Made by a program: the position numbers and the translations under genes
Source: Anaerolineaceae bacterium
Lineage (GTDB): Bacteria > Chloroflexota > Anaerolineae > Anaerolineales > Anaerolineaceae
Reading direction: 5' to 3'
DNA: 9,500 nt
Assembly: GCA_014860845.1 (NCBI GenBank)
Contig: JACZIY010000118.1
Location: 1-9,500 of the forward strand
The notes under the pieces: generated by a model
Told to the model about the DNA's origin: nothing
Databases searched by the model: none
What the model saw: the letters and a program-made list of their open reading frames with translations, nothing else
Shown here: positions 3,329 through 9,336 of the stretch, piece by piece
Layout of the letters: each line of letters begins with the position of its first letter
Numbering within the stretch: position 1 is the stretch's first letter

Positions 3329-3760
3329 ATTTAAGAAGGTTAGAGATTGAGCTGAGATAATCCAAAGGTTGCATGACTGGCAACAAAGAGGGTTGAAATT
3401 CCTTAGGGTTTCTTGTAACCAAACAATCTGCCTTACATTGAATTGCTGCGATCATTTGAACTGCATCTTCAAATCCTTTATATTCAGATTGAGTGCCTGT
3501 TCGATGGTATTTTGATCAATTGGAGCAATCAACAAGAATTGTAAGAGGTTAGTCATAATCGCCTTGGCATCAGAAACTGATTTTCCCTTTTGATAAAGAT
3601 AATACAAAGTGGTAATACTGTGTGCAGAAATGTAACCTTTGATTAAACCTGATTCAACAATCGCCAAAACTCTTGCAGAGTTCTCATAAAACGGTTCCTG
3701 TTTTTGAAAAACATTTAATAAAATATTTAGATCAAGTAATACACTTGGTTTGTTTTCCAT
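3327..3760 (-). pseudogene. PIN-domain toxin (VapC-like), frameshifted; readable product ends at 3452
   Basis: The intact frame from ATG 3760 gives 102 residues and stops at 3452-3454. It begins with the PIN core (SVLLDLNILLNVF, with first acidic residue Asp10) and contains GYISAHSITTLYYL (42-55), typical of PIN_3-type ribonuclease toxins. After residue Asn91 the homology jumps to another frame: SEYKGFEDAVQ, then ADCLVTRNPKEF, and a stop at 3327-3329. Inserting one base near 3487/3488 (AATCT to AATTCT, giving ALNSEYKGFEDA) restores a 144-residue protein of normal family length. The conserved FEDA acidic pair and TRN motif then fall where expected. As sequenced, the toxin lacks its later catalytic acids and is probably inactive. 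A sequencing error is the main alternative. The start overlaps the antitoxin end by 29 bases; the ATG at 3820 is rejected as it lies deep in the antitoxin gene. Confidence 0.8.
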
Positions 3761-3986
3761 ATTTGTCTTCAAGATGATCTCTGTAATCCTGTATAGATAA
3801 ATTTTTTGGAAATGAACCACTTAATCTGCGTACAATAGGGGCATTTTCTAAAGGAAATTGAGATGGAATATTCTTTAGAAATGACTCTATCAGTTCAGTT
3901 AACGTTGTGTTATTTTTTTCTGCGAAAACTTTTACATTTTCCAAAAGATCACGAGAAACTCTGACAGTAAATTTTGTGTCTTTCAT
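3732..3986 (-). CDS. ribbon-helix-helix antitoxin, DUF6364-like, partner of PIN toxin
   Basis: An 84-residue protein. The N-terminal part has the ribbon-helix-helix layout: strand TKFTVRV (4-10), helix SRDLLENVKVFAEKNN (11-26), turn and second helix TTLTELIESFLKNI (27-40). The C-terminal part, APIVRRLSGSFP (49-60) and SIQDYRDHLEDKYG (64-77), matches the segment that in DUF6364-type antitoxins follows the DNA-binding fold and presumably binds the toxin. The start at 3986 is preceded by AGAGGTG; longer starts up to 4034 run into the promoter. The gene overlaps the downstream PIN gene, the usual antitoxin-first order. It is expected to bind its own promoter and neutralise the toxin. The antitoxin frame is intact although the toxin frame is broken. 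Confidence 0.85.
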   Translation of the reverse strand: MKDTKFTVRVSRDLLENVKVFAEKNNTTLTELIESFLKNIPSQFPLENAPIVRRLSGSFPKNLSIQDYRDHLEDKYGKQTKCIT

Positions 3987-4034: not shown

Positions 4035-4064
4035 GATATATTATTATGGATATTTTGTCTTTGA

Positions 4065-4107
4065 AAAATCAATTCGCAAATAAATCCCCAAAATCAATTT
4101 CCCAAAA
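4065..4107 (+). repeat. 25-base direct repeat upstream of the transporter promoter
   Basis: AAAATCAATT occurs at 4065-4074 and again at 4090-4099, exactly 25 bases apart. Each copy is followed by a C-rich triplet region and AAA. The copies fall just upstream of the -35 box at 4112, a typical position for activator sites. Binding is inferred only from the repeat and its place. Confidence 0.35.
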
Positions 4108-4111
4108 TTAC

Positions 4112-4140
4112 TTGACAGATCATTCTAAAAAGTGTATAAA
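4112..4140 (+). promoter_or_regulatory. strong sigma70-type promoter of the transporter leader
   Basis: TTGACA (4112-4117) and TATAAA (4135-4140) are spaced by exactly 17 bases. Initiation is expected near 4147. No comparable promoter was found between the leader terminator (4296) and the binding-protein gene at 4515, so this is likely the operon promoter. Confidence 0.85.
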
Positions 4141-4146
4141 AGTCAA

Positions 4147-4296
4147 ACTATGAAATTCCAAATGATTGTTAAGAAGGCTAAGCGTCATCATCCGAACTTC
4201 TCCCAGAAGGAGCGGCTAGTTTTCGTTTAGCAGAATTTCAATAATTCCAAGAACGTACTTGAAAAAAAAGCCTTCCTTCTGGGGAAGGCTTTTCTT
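4147..4296 (+). ncRNA. structured leader RNA with terminator/antiterminator: candidate riboswitch, attenuator or small RNA
   Basis: Possible helices: P0 TGAAATTC (4151-4158) with GAATTTCA (4233-4240); P1 GCTAAGCG (4177-4184) with CGTTTAGC (4224-4231, one G-U); P2 CCG (4192-4194) with CGG (4213-4215); and CTTCT (4197-4201) with AGAAG (4205-4209). Together they form a rod of about 90 bases with an 18-base one-sided bulge. The transcript ends in an intrinsic terminator. TCCCAGAAGGA (4201-4211) can instead pair with TCCTTCTGGGG (4274-4284), one wobble. This opens both P2 and the terminator, the logic of a transcriptional switch. A 26-codon open frame starts at 4150 (MKFQMIVKKAKRHHPNFSQK then ERLVFV) but has no ribosome site and may be incidental. 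No known class (T-box TGGNACC, lysine, glycine, SAM) was recognised. A free-standing small RNA is the alternative. Confidence 0.6.
4266..4296 (+). terminator. intrinsic terminator inside the transporter leader
   Basis: A perfect 11-bp stem, AAAAGCCTTCC (4266-4276) with GGAAGGCTTTT (4283-4293), has a six-base loop and a TTTTCTTGTTT tail. It lies about 120-150 bases after the expected start point and about 220 bases before the binding-protein start, so it would cut off the operon unless the antiterminator pairing forms. Confidence 0.88.
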
Positions 4297-4353
4297 GTTT
4301 ATTTTCCGGTGAGTCTGTCTTTGGGCAATGGAAAATTTTTTTAAAGGAGCGAG

Positions 4354-4407
4354 ATGGAGGTGCAACGAAAAAAACATTACAGAATAACTCAAAAACTGAT
4401 TTTCTAA
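4354..4407 (+). CDS. possible 17-codon leader peptide
   Basis: A short open frame reading MEVQRKKHYRITQKLIF lies between the leader terminator and the binding-protein gene. It is preceded by AAAGGAG (4343-4349) four bases before the ATG. Its basic run (QRKKHYR) could make its translation sensitive to charged arginine, lysine or histidine tRNA, which would suit an amino-acid importer. At 17 codons chance is a fair explanation, so only the ribosome site and position support it. Confidence 0.25.
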   Translation: MEVQRKKHYRITQKLIF

Positions 4408-4426
4408 AACCAGATTGTCAGGGCTT

Positions 4427-4436
4427 GCTCATGAGC
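4427..4436 (+). repeat. palindrome GCTCATGAGC upstream of the binding-protein gene
   Basis: A perfect 10-bp palindrome in the untranslated leader. With flanking G-U pairs it can extend to a longer hairpin in RNA. It may be a regulator site or an mRNA stem. There is no U-tract, so it is not a terminator. Confidence 0.3.
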
Positions 4437-4514
4437 GGGTTAGTGTTGAAAGAACGGTAATTGCCAAAGGAACCGTTTAATGAAAAAAACAAATTAATGA
4501 ATGGAGAAAAAGTG

Positions 4515-5450
4515 ATGAGAAGAAACGTATTAATTGTAAACCTTATATTGATCGCAACTTTGTTGTTGTCTGCCTGTGCCAGTACCAACGAACCAACTGC
4601 ACCGGCCATCGAAGAACCACAATCAGAGGCACCTGTTGCAGAAGTTCCCGCTGCTGAAGAACCAGTGGAAGAACCTGTTGCTGCTGACCCGGAGGGATGT
4701 CTGGGAAGTGCGGATACAGCTGTCGTTGACCTGAACTGTCAGGAGATCACCATCGCTGTTGAAAACGCTTACCTGCCATTCAACTACATTTCCATTGAGA
4801 CGGGCGAGCCGGGTGGTTGGGACTATGATGCCTGGAATGAGATTTGCACCCGCCTGCACTGTACCCCGGTATTCGTAGAAGCTGCCTGGGATGGCATGAT
4901 TCAGGCTGTTTCTAATGGACAGTTTGATGCTGCTGGTGATGGTATCACCAACACTCCCGATCGCCAGGAAGTGGTGGATTTCTCGATTGGCTATATCAAT
5001 ATTCAGCAACGCTTGCTGGTTCGAATGGGTGAAACCCGCTTTGATTCGATTGAAGCTTTTGCTGAGACCGATCTTCAAATGGGTACACAATCCAATACCA
5101 CTAATTATGAAACTGCCACAGAATATTTACCTGAGGATCGCATCAGCGCTTTTGAGCAATTCCCCTTTGCCATCCAGGCCTTATTGGCCGGTGATGTGGA
5201 TGCAGTGATCATTGATGAGGTAGTTGGGATGGGCTATATGGGCGAAAATGCAGAGCAACTGGAACTCATTGGGCCGGCAATCAGCAGTGATGAGTTAGGT
5301 TTCATCTACCCACTCGGTAGTGATCTGGTCGATCCGGTCAACCAGGCAATTCAGTCGATGATGGCAGATGGTTTCTTAGCTGCTTTGAATGTCCGTTATT
5401 TTGGACCTGAATTTGATATCACCTATGATGATATTTTACTAGAAGATTAA
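4515..5450 (+). CDS. polar amino-acid ABC transporter substrate-binding lipoprotein
   Basis: A 311-residue lipoprotein. The signal peptide MRRNVLIVNLILIATLLLSA ends in a lipobox with Cys21, which would be lipidated to anchor the protein outside the membrane. A Pro/Glu/Ala-rich linker (about 22-58) precedes a family 3 solute-binding domain (about 76-300). Visible marks are AVENAYLPFNY (81-91), GWDYDAWNEI (101-110), DGITNTPDRQEVVDFSIGY (142-160) and VDAVIIDEVV (228-237). Arg150, in the position that binds the substrate carboxylate, and Asp234, in the amino-group position, are 84 residues apart as in HisJ. Two Cys pairs (62/75 and 111/116) could form disulphides. GGAG at 4503-4506 fixes ATG 4515; the upstream ATG 4497 and TTG 4461 lack a site. 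The exact amino acid is not deducible. It feeds the adjacent permease and ATPase. Confidence 0.93.
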   Translation: MRRNVLIVNLILIATLLLSACASTNEPTAPAIEEPQSEAPVAEVPAAEEPVEEPVAADPEGCLGSADTAVVDLNCQEITIAVENAYLPFNYISIETGEPGGWDYDAWNEICTRLHCTPVFVEAAWDGMIQAVSNGQFDAAGDGITNTPDRQEVVDFSIGYINIQQRLLVRMGETRFDSIEAFAETDLQMGTQSNTTNYETATEYLPEDRISAFEQFPFAIQALLAGDVDAVIIDEVVGMGYMGENAEQLELIGPAISSDELGFIYPLGSDLVDPVNQAIQSMMADGFLAALNVRYFGPEFDITYDDILLED

Positions 5451-5496: not shown

Positions 5497-5553
5497 TCAT
5501 GAAAATAAAATCATGAACGGATGAGCAATTATATTGCTGGAACAGGATCGATC

Positions 5554-6429
5554 ATGAATCAAAGCACATCTATTGAAATGAACCCCACTCCGGATAATTT
5601 AGGGAAACCAACCATCAAAGAAAGATTGTCCCAATTTCCCTGGTGGTTTGTGGCGTTAATCCTGATATTAATTGGCACGTTTATTGCGATAGCCATCCAA
5701 CCTTCATATACAGAAGCATTTAATTTCATCAAAGCTGGTTTGGGAATTACTATTCGAACCACCCTGATTGCATTCGTTATCGCTTTATTTCTGGGGTTGA
5801 TAACGGGTTTAGGCCGAATCTCTCATAATGTTTTCTTTAAAAATCTAGCAACTCTGTATGTGGAGTTTATCCGCGGTGTGCCCATGCTGGTGCTGATCTT
5901 CTTTATTGCATTTGTTGCAATCCCCGTTGTGGTGGGTGGAATGAATGAACTCGGGCATTGGTTTCAGACTCAGGGTTGGAATTGGATCGCTGGCCCATTT
6001 TTAGCTTTGGAGAATAAAGCGATCGAAATGAATGTGCGGGCGATCATCGCGCTCTCTGTAACTTATGGAGCTTTTCTCGCGGAGATCTTCCGTGCTGGAA
6101 TTCAGTCAGTGAGCAAAGGACAGATGGAAGCAGCCCGATCTCAAGGCATGAGCAGCGGACAGGCGATGATCTATATCATCTTACCTCAGGCAATTCGTAA
6201 TGTCTTGCCGGCATTGGGCAATGACTTTGTGGCCATGTTGAAGGATTCTTCCTTAGTATCGGTGTTAGCCGTGCGTGATATAACCCAGGTGGCACGCCTG
6301 TATGCCGGGCGGTCCTTCCGATTTGAAGAAGCCTATACCATACTGGCAATCTTATATCTGTGCATGACCATCATATTATCGCTGGTCGTGAAATACATTG
6401 AGAGGAGGGTTCGCCAGGATGAGCGCTAG
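5554..6429 (+). CDS. polar amino-acid ABC transporter permease (HisM/GlnP type)
   Basis: A 291-residue inner-membrane subunit. Hydrophobic helices are at about 31-49, 64-86, 107-128, 161-178, 222-240 and 260-280. The ABC-permease coupling motif is at 192-211 ([23 protein letters not shown], Gly198, then the ILP end), which contacts the ATPase. [13 protein letters not shown] near helix 2 and [11 protein letters not shown] (107-117) are typical of the His/Glu/Gln/Arg permease group. A loop of about 30 residues between helices 3 and 4 (about 129-158, Trp-rich) makes it longer than GlnP of enteric bacteria. ATG 5554 is preferred because AGGA lies at 5544-5547; ATG 5521 would add 11 residues and has no site. 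Only one permease gene is present, so the channel is probably a homodimer. Its end overlaps the ATPase start by 11 bases. Confidence 0.93.
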
Positions 6430-7162
6430 ACCAATGATTGAAGTCAAAGATGTTTACAAAGTATTTGGAAAAGTTGTCGCCTTGAATGGTGTCAGCCTGA
6501 ATGTTTATCCTGGCAAAGTGGTTGTGATTGTCGGACCCAGTGGTTCTGGAAAGTCTACCTTGTTACGATGCATGAACCACATGGAGGTGGAGAGTCAGGG
6601 AGAGATTTGGGTGGATGGGGAACACCTGATTGGTGATCAAATGAGACTTAATCGCATCCGCTCCGAGATTGGGATGGTTTTCCAATCCTTTAATCTATAT
6701 CCCCATTTGAGTGTTTTGGAAAATGTAACACTAGCGCAACGAATTGTGCGAAAAACCGACAAGATAACAGCCAAGGAAATTGCTATGCAACAACTTATAA
6801 AAGTTGGCATTGCAGAGAAGGCAGATGCTTATCCCGCACAACTATCTGGTGGGCAACAGCAACGCGTGGCGATTGCTCGCGCTTTGGCCATGAAACCGAA
6901 AATCATGCTGTTTGACGAACCCACCAGCGCATTGGATCCCGAAATGATCAAAGAAGTATTGGATGTGATGCTGCTACTGGCAAAAGAAGGGATCACCATG
7001 GTGGTAGTAACTCATGAGATGGGATTTGCTCGCGCTGCAGCGGATGAAGTGGTCTTTATGGATTTTGGTCAGATCGTGGAACATGGTACGCCTGGTGAGG
7101 TATTTGATCACCCTCAGCATCCGCGCACACAGCAATTTTTATCGCAGATATTGTCACATTAG
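6419..7162 (+). CDS. polar amino-acid ABC transporter ATP-binding protein (GlnQ/HisP type)
   Basis: A 247-residue ATPase with all motifs intact: Walker [10 protein letters not shown] (39-47), Q-loop Gln89 in [17 protein letters not shown], signature LSGGQQQR (142-149), Walker B IMLFDEP (162-168), D-loop SALD (170-173) and H-loop His199 in [10 protein letters not shown]. The length and the MGFA after the H-loop are characteristic of the amino-acid importer group. It hydrolyses ATP on the cytoplasmic face to drive import through the permease. The ATG at 6419 follows AGGAGGG (6403-6409) located inside the permease gene; overlap of 11 bases indicates coupled translation. The TTG at 6398 is in frame but redundant. 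It is the last gene of the importer operon. Confidence 0.96.
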
Positions 7163-8025: not shown

Positions 8026-8901
8026 ATGCGTGCACGTCGAGCTTTATTATACATGCCCGGTGACGATGAATACAAAATCAAAAAAGCAACTGAGTTGATT
8101 GTAGATTCTGTCGTTCTGGATCTGGAAGATTCCGTTTCTATGTCCTGTAAAAATGTAGCGCGGGAGATGGTTGCCAAATCTCTGCTTGAACTGGACTTTA
8201 ATGGATCGGAACGGCTGGTGCGCATCAATCCTTTTTCATCCGGGTTAGCAGAAGGGGATCTGGAAATGGTATTACCCTCGCAACCGGATGGCATTCTCTT
8301 ACCAAAAACTAAAACAGCAGAGGATGTGCAGAAACTGAGCATAATCCTGGCTGATTTTGAAAATGAACAGGGCTGGGAAAATAATTCCATATGTATTCTG
8401 GCGATTGTTGAGAATGCATTAGGGATCATAAATTTAAAGGAAATTGCACAGTCTGATCTCAGGCTGGATGCTTTGATTTGTGGCGGTGAAGATCTGGCAA
8501 CGGATATTAATGCTGTTCGAACACGGGCTGGCTGGGAATTATTCTATGCCCGCAGCGCAGTAGTGCTGCATGCTGGCGCATTCAATTTACAGGCGATCGA
8601 TATGGTTACCTCAGATTTTTCTGATGTGCATGCCTTAGAGGAGGAAGCTTCGCAAAGCCTGAAATTGGGATTTTCAGGGAAGCAGATTATTCACCCCAAT
8701 CAGATTGAACCTGTTCAGCGAGCTTTCACACCGGATGATGAAGAAATTGCCTACGCATTACAATTAATAGAAAAATTTGAAGAGAGTGACAAAAATGGAC
8801 AGGCAGCTTTTGCGCTGGATGGAGTCATGGTCGATCTGCCGGTAATTATTCGCGCACAACGTTTACTGAAACGCGCCAGAGCTGCCGGTAAGTTGTTGTA
8901 A
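8026..8901 (+). CDS. CitE-like HpcH/HpaI aldolase family protein (malyl-CoA lyase/thioesterase-like)
   Basis: A 291-residue TIM-barrel enzyme of the citrate lyase beta / malyl-CoA lyase superfamily. The N-terminus RRALLYMPG (4-12), VVLDLEDSV (29-37), RINPF with Arg66 (66-70), ILLPKT (90-95), IVENALGI (127-134), CGGEDLATD (152-160) and GFSGKQIIHPNQI (215-227) follow the family order. Glu129 and Asp156, the expected Mg2+ ligands, are 27 residues apart, the spacing in malyl-CoA lyase. Family members cleave or hydrolyse 3-hydroxyacyl-CoA type substrates. With no citF or citD gene beside it, it is probably not part of a citrate lyase complex. It is first in a two-gene operon with a thioesterase 18 bases downstream, pointing to a CoA-ester pathway. 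The substrate cannot be told from sequence. Confidence 0.88.
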   Translation: MRARRALLYMPGDDEYKIKKATELIVDSVVLDLEDSVSMSCKNVAREMVAKSLLELDFNGSERLVRINPFSSGLAEGDLEMVLPSQPDGILLPKTKTAEDVQKLSIILADFENEQGWENNSICILAIVENALGIINLKEIAQSDLRLDALICGGEDLATDINAVRTRAGWELFYARSAVVLHAGAFNLQAIDMVTSDFSDVHALEEEASQSLKLGFSGKQIIHPNQIEPVQRAFTPDDEEIAYALQLIEKFEESDKNGQAAFALDGVMVDLPVIIRAQRLLKRARAAGKLL

Positions 8902-8919
8902 ACAATTCTTGAGGTGGAA

Positions 8920-9336
8920 ATGGCGATTGAACCTGGATTAATCCATGAATTTTCGATGATTGTTGAAGCAGAACATACTGCCGCAGCCATAGAAAAGGAC
9001 TCTGAAATTGGGCAACTGGTACCGGTATTGAGTACTCCTTATCTGGTGAGCTTAATGGAAACGGCTGCACATGGCGCTGTCTTACCTTTTCTGGAACCCG
9101 GTCAAAGTGGAGTAGGTGCGATGATTCACATAAAGCACATGGCGGCCACACCGGTGGGTATGCAGGTTCGGATTCGGGCAGAGTTGATGGAAGTTCAGGG
9201 ACGCAGGTTATTATTTAAAGTGGATGCCTGGGATGAGGTTGAAAAAATTGCCGAAGGTGAACACGAACGCTTCATCATCAATTGGGAGCGGTTTATGACA
9301 GGTGTTGAGAAAAAGCAGGCAAAAAGAACCGGGTAA
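8920..9336 (+). CDS. hot-dog acyl-CoA thioesterase, FlK-like (fluoroacetyl-CoA thioesterase family)
   Basis: A 138-residue single hot-dog-fold protein. The family pattern runs through STPYLVSLMETAAHGAV (38-54), VGAMIHIKHMAATPVGM (65-81), the beta strands VRIRAELMEVQGRRLLFKV (83-101) and the end GEHERFIIN (113-121). Thr39, Glu47 and His73 match the Thr42/Glu50/His76 catalytic triad of Streptomyces FlK in both order and spacing (8 and 26 residues). It likely hydrolyses a small acyl-CoA; there is no reason to assume fluoroacetyl-CoA is the substrate. ATG 8920 is preferred, with GAGG at 8911-8914; GTG 8914 overlaps that site. It is co-transcribed with the CitE-like gene. The charged tail after residue 122 is not conserved-looking. 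No clear terminator follows. Confidence 0.87.
   Translation: MAIEPGLIHEFSMIVEAEHTAAAIEKDSEIGQLVPVLSTPYLVSLMETAAHGAVLPFLEPGQSGVGAMIHIKHMAATPVGMQVRIRAELMEVQGRRLLFKVDAWDEVEKIAEGEHERFIINWERFMTGVEKKQAKRTG

Follow-up and report, generated by a model that had tools for sequence, protein, structure and literature searches.

Known attenuators include those for Trp, His, Leu, Ile/Val, Thr and Phe. That of the ilvBNC operon of Corynebacterium glutamicum, in which transcription begins only one nucleotide away from the start codon of a leader with Ile, Val and Leu codons, is described in PMC11857589 as combining features that we also find or predict here: a start codon close to the 5' end, mixed control codons, alternative hairpins and transcription attenuation. 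It differs in its host (Corynebacterium), in its branched-chain codons and in preceding a biosynthetic operon, whereas the leader that we report belongs to Chloroflexota, has Lys, Arg and His codons and precedes an importer. The leader-peptide ORF of the Sinorhizobium meliloti attenuator trpL (rnTrpL) is likewise leaderless, but is concerned with tryptophan and trpE; the same source names SEP5, which has Thr and Lys codons, as a candidate leader peptide (PMC10117765). In mycobacteria, Cys-coded leaderless ORFs are described (PMC4633059; PMC9031893, citing Canestrari 2020), which are also small leaderless ORFs with a codon run sensing one amino acid; that amino acid is cysteine and, according to PMC9031893, it is the translation of what lies downstream that is controlled.

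The his attenuators of gamma-proteobacteria and some Firmicutes, as presented in PMC9413887, have a His run and attenuator, antiterminator and terminator hairpins, and their logic is that of the hisG leaders described below, unlike our main leader, which has a mixed basic run before an importer; that source mentions Chloroflexi only in its reference list. Arginine is sensed through Arg codons in an upstream small ORF in Salmonella orf34-speF (PMC6386406) and Staphylococcus aureus rbfL (PMC13009471), but the accounts given there deal with access to the ribosome site, translation and RNA decay (Rho termination being discussed for speF), and not with an intrinsic terminator such as the one found here. 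Leaderless genes are predicted in 4 of 12 Chloroflexi genomes in the data cited from PMC3160421. Among the matches listed from the open-licence literature, no paper deals, by its title or the opening of its abstract, with leader-peptide attenuation in Chloroflexi or Anaerolineae.

The leader and the importer operon

The window, by which we mean the whole stretch of 9,500 nucleotides that was analysed, contains the following features.

4112 to 4140, + strand: promoter read from the sequence (TTGACA 4112-4117, 17-nt spacer, TATAAA 4135-4140)
4150 to 4230, + strand: leader-peptide ORF, 26 codons and TAG, predicted to be leaderless
4171 to 4191, + strand: control codons (codons 8-14, Lys-Lys-Ala-Lys-Arg-His-His), from the sequence and relatives
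4177 to 4231, + strand: P1 (4177-4184 with 4224-4231), which encloses P2, from the fold and relatives
4192-4194/4214-4216 and 4197-4201/4205-4209, + strand: P2, inside P1
4201 to 4217, + strand: antiterminator strand, which can pair with 4269-4284 (16 pairs, one bulged C)
4266 to 4300, + strand: intrinsic terminator (stem 4266-4293, 12 pairs, T-rich tail)
4356 to 4362, + strand: Shine-Dalgarno-like GGAGGTG, conserved, after the terminator
4515 to 5450, + strand: substrate-binding protein (PF00497)
5521 to 6429, + strand: importer permease (PF00528)
6422 to 7162, + strand: importer ATPase (PF00005)

An earlier note on this DNA, which proposed an orphan riboswitch or an attenuator, had read a near-consensus promoter, TTGACA-17-TATAAA, and the sequence bears this out: both hexamers are unvarying across nine aligned leaders (an automated scan omitted this promoter because it requires a T at the last -10 position). 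The terminator, first described as a perfect 11-bp stem, is present ahead of the first gene of the importer and has 12 pairs here. The three genes that follow match PF00497, PF00528 and PF00005, so that they encode, as had been proposed and as judged from these domains, a polar amino-acid ABC importer. Of the NCBIfam models, the Lys/Arg/Orn model TIGR01096 fits the binding protein best (102 bits for a cut-off of 256), and among solved structures reconstructed ancestors and ArtJ come closest; these matches are suggestive only, and the protein sequence does not fix the substrate. It is mainly the codons of the leader that point to basic amino acids as the probable cargo.

Elsewhere in the window, a PIN_3-domain protein beside a DUF6364 protein (3452-3986, minus strand) resembles a toxin-antitoxin pair, and an HpcH/HpaI-citrate-lyase-family protein lies beside an FlK-like thioesterase (8026-9336).

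The fold of 4148-4300 has an energy of -41.1 kcal/mol, against a mean of -31.9 for shuffled sequences (z -2.43; 4 of 200 shuffles equally good). The leader had been drawn as a rod made of P0, P1 and P2. The minimum-free-energy fold does contain P1 (4177-4184/4224-4231) and P2, and P1 is kept in relatives, but P0 (4151-4158/4233-4240) is not: its energy is -7.1 kcal/mol in the window, and the seven relatives for which it was calculated, L001-L006 and L008, reach only -0.3 to -3.3. We rejected P0 as a functional stem on the basis of this weak pairing; its formation in the window is probably incidental.

The first reading had left out the ORF 4150-4230, whose product is MKFQMIVKKAKRHHPNFSQKERLVFV* (stop codon 4228-4230). 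Its ATG is 9 nt past the -10 box. With a transcription start at the normal spacing from that box, no room is left for a Shine-Dalgarno sequence, and this suggests that the ORF is leaderless. The run of basic codons 4171-4191 contains the 5' arm of P1, and the stop codon sits in the 3' arm.

Coding frame and control codons in relatives

The binding protein of the window has 28 relatives among the genome contigs searched, eight of which (L001-L008) have the leader upstream. A covariance model (R1) was built from these eight leaders and that of the window; run against the window and loci L001-L020 of the 28, it matched the leader in those nine only, the other matches (E up to 1) being weak ones located at these loci but on the other strand. 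R1 matched 35 of 147 genomes in the family of the closest relative (G001), a tally that includes matches later rejected, and 3 of 396 in a sample of the class. Among 400 genomes of the order, a refined model, R2, made from 30 sequences, had matches in 47 (again counting matches later rejected); among 400 of the phylum it had matches in 5, two of which (L071 and L072) were rejected; the class and phylum samples were run with stricter filters, which lose weak matches, so that these counts set no firm limit on the range.

In total 58 places were inspected (the window, L001-L007, and batches of 23 and 27 places) and 46 were kept. The other 12 (L056, L071, L072, L076, L077, L078, L081, L083, L085, L088, L089 and L090) were dropped by hand, being placed in coding sequence or lacking the promoter-ATG-ORF layout, and the set of 46 is thus partly selected on layout. 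In the batch of 23 places, 22 were accepted by eye (one of them, L038, is the training leader L008), while an automatic rule finds 20 of the 23. An R2 match on the other strand in G731, which overlaps L076, is outside the 58 places inspected on their own.

The coding evidence was obtained with a fixed rule, applied without selection: the best promoter is taken, and then the first ATG 3-14 nt past it. In the nine training leaders, which were picked irrespective of any ORF, the ATG is found in all nine, and there are 0 stops in 171 in-frame codons as opposed to 12 and 12 in the other frames. Over all 58 inspected places, kept or dropped, the ATG is found in 46 and 1 of 874 in-frame codons is a stop, vs 48 and 47 stops in the other frames. 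In the kept set, an ATG is present 6-12 nt past the -10 box in 44 of 46 leaders, and their first 19 codons contain 0 stops in frame compared with 45 and 46. These 19-codon stretches contain 104 Lys codons in frame (29 and 42 in the other frames) and 55 His codons (9 and 39); Arg codons, pooled over all the kept leaders, show no frame specificity (75 vs 94 and 34). From the control triplet to the stop codon, the median distance is 54 nt (39-72 over the 46 leaders). The frame evidence supports a short ORF, which would be translated, at the predicted start of the transcript.

The 46 kept leaders precede 33 importers, 6 lysW-lysX loci, 4 argG genes, 1 hisG gene, 1 gene resembling homocitrate or isopropylmalate synthases and 1 resembling citrate synthases. 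All 33 importer leaders have Lys at the control position, which was assigned by hand in this class, and the codon after it is for Arg in 23 leaders and for His in 8, with one leader each for Lys and Val. In five of them (L041, L043, L045, L050 and L067) the control Lys is AAA and not AAG, the amino acid being kept. The 33 downstream importer proteins all match PF00497; besides that of the window itself, 24 are 54-94% identical to the binding protein of the window and 8 are 26-30% identical, so that this type of leader goes with two kinds of binding protein. The six lysW-type leaders are Lys-coded (LKKRS or PKRK); the LysX model is above cut-off at five of these loci, and at the sixth (L046) the contig ends within the lysW-like ORF. 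The four argG leaders read RRPRR, RARR, RRARR and RRPRP, with the argG model passed in 4/4, and Arg makes up 25.0% of their 64 in-frame codons vs 1.6% and 7.8% in the other frames. The hisG leader reads HHHH, and its gene passes the hisG model (1/1). The leader L064, before the citrate-synthase-like gene, reads LRRQQQNPKPQ and points to no single amino acid. As far as sequence can tell, the control codons correspond to the pathway that is regulated, and the importer would take up the amino acids that its leader encodes.

Among the kept leaders, those of importers, of lysW, of hisG and of the homocitrate- and citrate-synthase types are all within the family of G001. The argG leaders L069, L080 and L087 are in three genomes of the order (G603, G641 and G708) that are outside this family, and outside the set of 147 genomes.

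The match between codons and genes was also examined with a scan that ignores the amino acid, and only looks for a promoter, a leaderless ATG, an ORF of 10-50 codons and a terminator upstream of biosynthetic genes. For argG (the best-scoring 30 loci; 49 of 91 genomes were over the cut-off), a leader is found in 17 of 30 regions (L093-L122), all 17 with Arg-Arg; for hisG (30 of 35 places), in 21 of 30 regions (L123-L152), all 21 with His-His-His. Dinucleotide shuffles gave 0/90 in each case. A looser scan finds a His-rich ORF in 24 of the 27 hisG regions where the gene start was located. This blind scan overlaps the set obtained with the covariance models by one argG leader (L113 is L070) and one hisG leader (L132 is L086), so that the two are not wholly independent. 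The blind scan found a leader in 0/14 trpE regions (shuffles 0/42) and in 0/30 leuA regions (shuffles 0/90); leuA is frequently internal to operons, and the latter result is therefore not proof of absence.

The promoter, the ORF and the terminator form a self-contained unit, and an attenuated transcript is itself a short RNA. It could therefore be argued that the unit is a constitutive small RNA or small-protein gene, the importer having its own promoter elsewhere, downstream of 4300; one leader peptide is indeed reported, in PMC7298713, to act in trans. On the contrary, the importer-class leaders have diverged (the median nucleotide identity, anchored on the ATG, is 31% over 17 codons) save for the basic run, and this run tracks the downstream gene. 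The antiterminator described below would also serve nothing in such a gene, and we consider this explanation very unlikely.

Alternative pairings and the proposed attenuation

The mutually exclusive pairing that had been proposed, 4201-4211 with 4274-4284, is present and is longer than claimed, since it extends to 4217 with 4269 if one C is bulged. The covariation expected among relatives was looked for in an alignment (A3) of the leaders. On each of the five measures, the structure made of P1, P2 and the terminator outscores every one of 500 shuffles, in an alignment that was fitted to the very structure whose covariation it counts; the CCG/CGG helix within P1 (4192-4194/4214-4216) is paired in just 48% of the alignment cells. 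The antiterminator was not part of this fit. Its columns are 72.1% paired, vs 70.7 after shuffling (39/500 as high) and at most 63.9% in slid registers. It shows 23 double changes vs 14.5 in shuffles (2/500 as high), but the number of pairs with a double change (7 vs 6.2; 177/500), that of further pair types (23 vs 24.0; 401/500) and the covariation score (0.169 vs 0.149; 23/500) do not or hardly exceed those of shuffled alignments. The column-wise covariation of the antiterminator is weak. When the duplex is instead evaluated leader by leader, the antiterminator has a mean z of -2.07, is negative in 45 of 46 leaders and has p<=0.05 in 24/46; for the arms of P1, the mean z is -1.33, negative in 38/46 and below -1.64 in 16/46. 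As regards the earlier note, covariation is therefore found for P1 and the terminator, it is weak by columns for the antiterminator, and P0 is not conserved. The part of that note which spoke of an attenuator controlling an amino-acid importer agrees with the compensatory changes in P1 and the terminator, and with antiterminator duplexes that beat shuffles in relatives.

Stems conserved with covariation, and a terminator and an antiterminator that exclude each other, are also what an orphan riboswitch would have, P1 and P2 being then an amino-acid aptamer and the ORF an accident. However, the 5' arm of P1 is built from Lys/Arg/His codons that share the frame of a leaderless ATG; although the stems themselves are conserved, this arm varies with the amino acid that is coded, and the codons vary with the downstream gene. 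A riboswitch leaves the single in-frame stop among 874 codons, and the match between codons and genes at argG, hisG and lysW loci, without a cause. The location of the codons in the 5' arm of P1, together with this match, indicates that the sensor is a translating ribosome and not a receptor for a small ligand, and we regard the riboswitch as highly improbable.

In agreement with the earlier note, which recognised no known riboswitch or T-box signature, Rfam gives 0 matches at the gathering score across the window. A drifted T-box or a known lysine riboswitch would fit the amino-acid gene downstream and the terminator/antiterminator logic, but neither family reaches the gathering score in the window, and neither is among the 18 weak matches (E up to 10) for 4050-4560; we give practically no credence to this explanation. 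The Rfam amino-acid leaders score below their cut-off of 55 bits in the same region: on the strand of the leader, Phe_leader scores 21.0 bits and Thr_leader 15.3, and on the other strand they score 31.3 and 21.9. Ligand riboswitches, T-boxes and the known Rfam leaders were rejected as candidates on the grounds given here.

We consider it very likely that this is a case of ribosome-mediated transcription attenuation, in which a leaderless leader peptide serves to sense charged basic tRNAs. The ORF, its frame, the match between codons and genes and the alternative pairings come from the sequence and from comparison between relatives; from these we infer the following mechanism. Transcription would begin at or beside the ATG at 4150, where the ribosome would initiate. 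Under a shortage of charged Lys-, Arg- or His-tRNA, the ribosome would stall at 4171-4191 and cover the 5' arm of P1. Strand 4201-4217, now released, would then pair with 4269-4284 in the 5' arm of the terminator, the terminator would not form and the importer operon would be transcribed. When these tRNAs are charged, the ribosome would reach the stop codon 4228-4230 and mask the antiterminator strand, and transcription would terminate at 4266-4293. If the ORF is not translated, P1 and P2 would sequester the antiterminator strand, so that termination would be the default.

The predicted folds of the window agree with these three states: P1 and the terminator form without a ribosome; when the sequence is masked through 4195, to mimic stalling at the Lys/Arg codons, the antiterminator forms (-35.5 kcal/mol) and the terminator is lost; masking beyond the stop codon gives the terminator. 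Over the 46 leaders, the terminator forms in 44 without a ribosome and in 46/46 with a ribosome at the stop codon. With a stalled ribosome and the whole leader at equilibrium, the antiterminator is dominant in just 10 of the 46, the window among them, and this modelled figure is a caution for the attenuation model. In the classical model, the state that counts is the one in which the chain ends at the terminator loop. For chains ended there, at least 5 antiterminator pairs are predicted in 43 of 46 leaders (mean 8.5 vs 5.6 for shuffled sequences), while just 11/46 exceed 95% of their own shuffles. A mutually exclusive antiterminator is thus found, for which column covariation and the equilibrium folds of the relatives argue less strongly.

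Beyond the terminator, and significance

Among the 30 importer leaders in which the gap is long enough, the gene is preceded, at a distance of 35 nt or more, by GGAGG[T/C] in 25, compared with 4.1% of shuffles; besides the window, the carriers are L001-L005, L007, L030, L038-L040, L042-L045, L048, L050, L052, L054, L055, L067, L068, L075, L084 and L091. An ATG, GTG or TTG follows at the usual distance in just 7 of these 25. With a slightly wider motif, a pair of Lys-Lys codons comes soon after in 14/26 (shuffles 14%). With a rougher window for the search, the motif is found in 0/17 argG regions and 9/19 hisG regions.

Several small elements lie in the same part of these loci. The GGAGGTG of the window overlaps a small ORF, MEVQRKKHYRITQKLIF (4354-4407). 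In L041, L045, L050 and L067, second Lys-rich ORFs (MKKYKIK, MKKYKIQHQK, MKKYKILP and MKKIKPKQ) are found within about 60 nt past the terminator, after a Shine-Dalgarno-like site and within a long predicted stem. A hairpin-like sequence, AACGGTAATTGCCAAAGGAACCGTT (about 4456-4481), which is alike in several close relatives, lies upstream of the binding-protein gene in the window and is followed by a five-codon ORF, MKKTN (4480-4497).

It may be, on the strength of this motif, that the importer leaders hold two starvation sensors in series, first the leaderless Lys/Arg/His attenuator and, beyond the terminator, GGAGGTG as a very strong ribosome-binding site for a tiny Lys-Lys ORF; we find this speculative and rather unlikely. 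If it were true, the operon would be gated at transcription and then at translation, with a second ORF that often has no standard start codon.

Within the literature searched, the mechanism of the attenuator is known, while the lineage, the set of basic amino acids and the RNA family appear to be new. The leader described here would extend classical translation-coupled attenuation to Chloroflexota, and add Lys- and Arg-coded transcription attenuators to those already described. The mixed Lys/Arg/His run predicts the substrates of the importer, which the sequence of the importer alone does not; codon runs of this kind could therefore help to assign substrates and pathways in uncultivated genomes.
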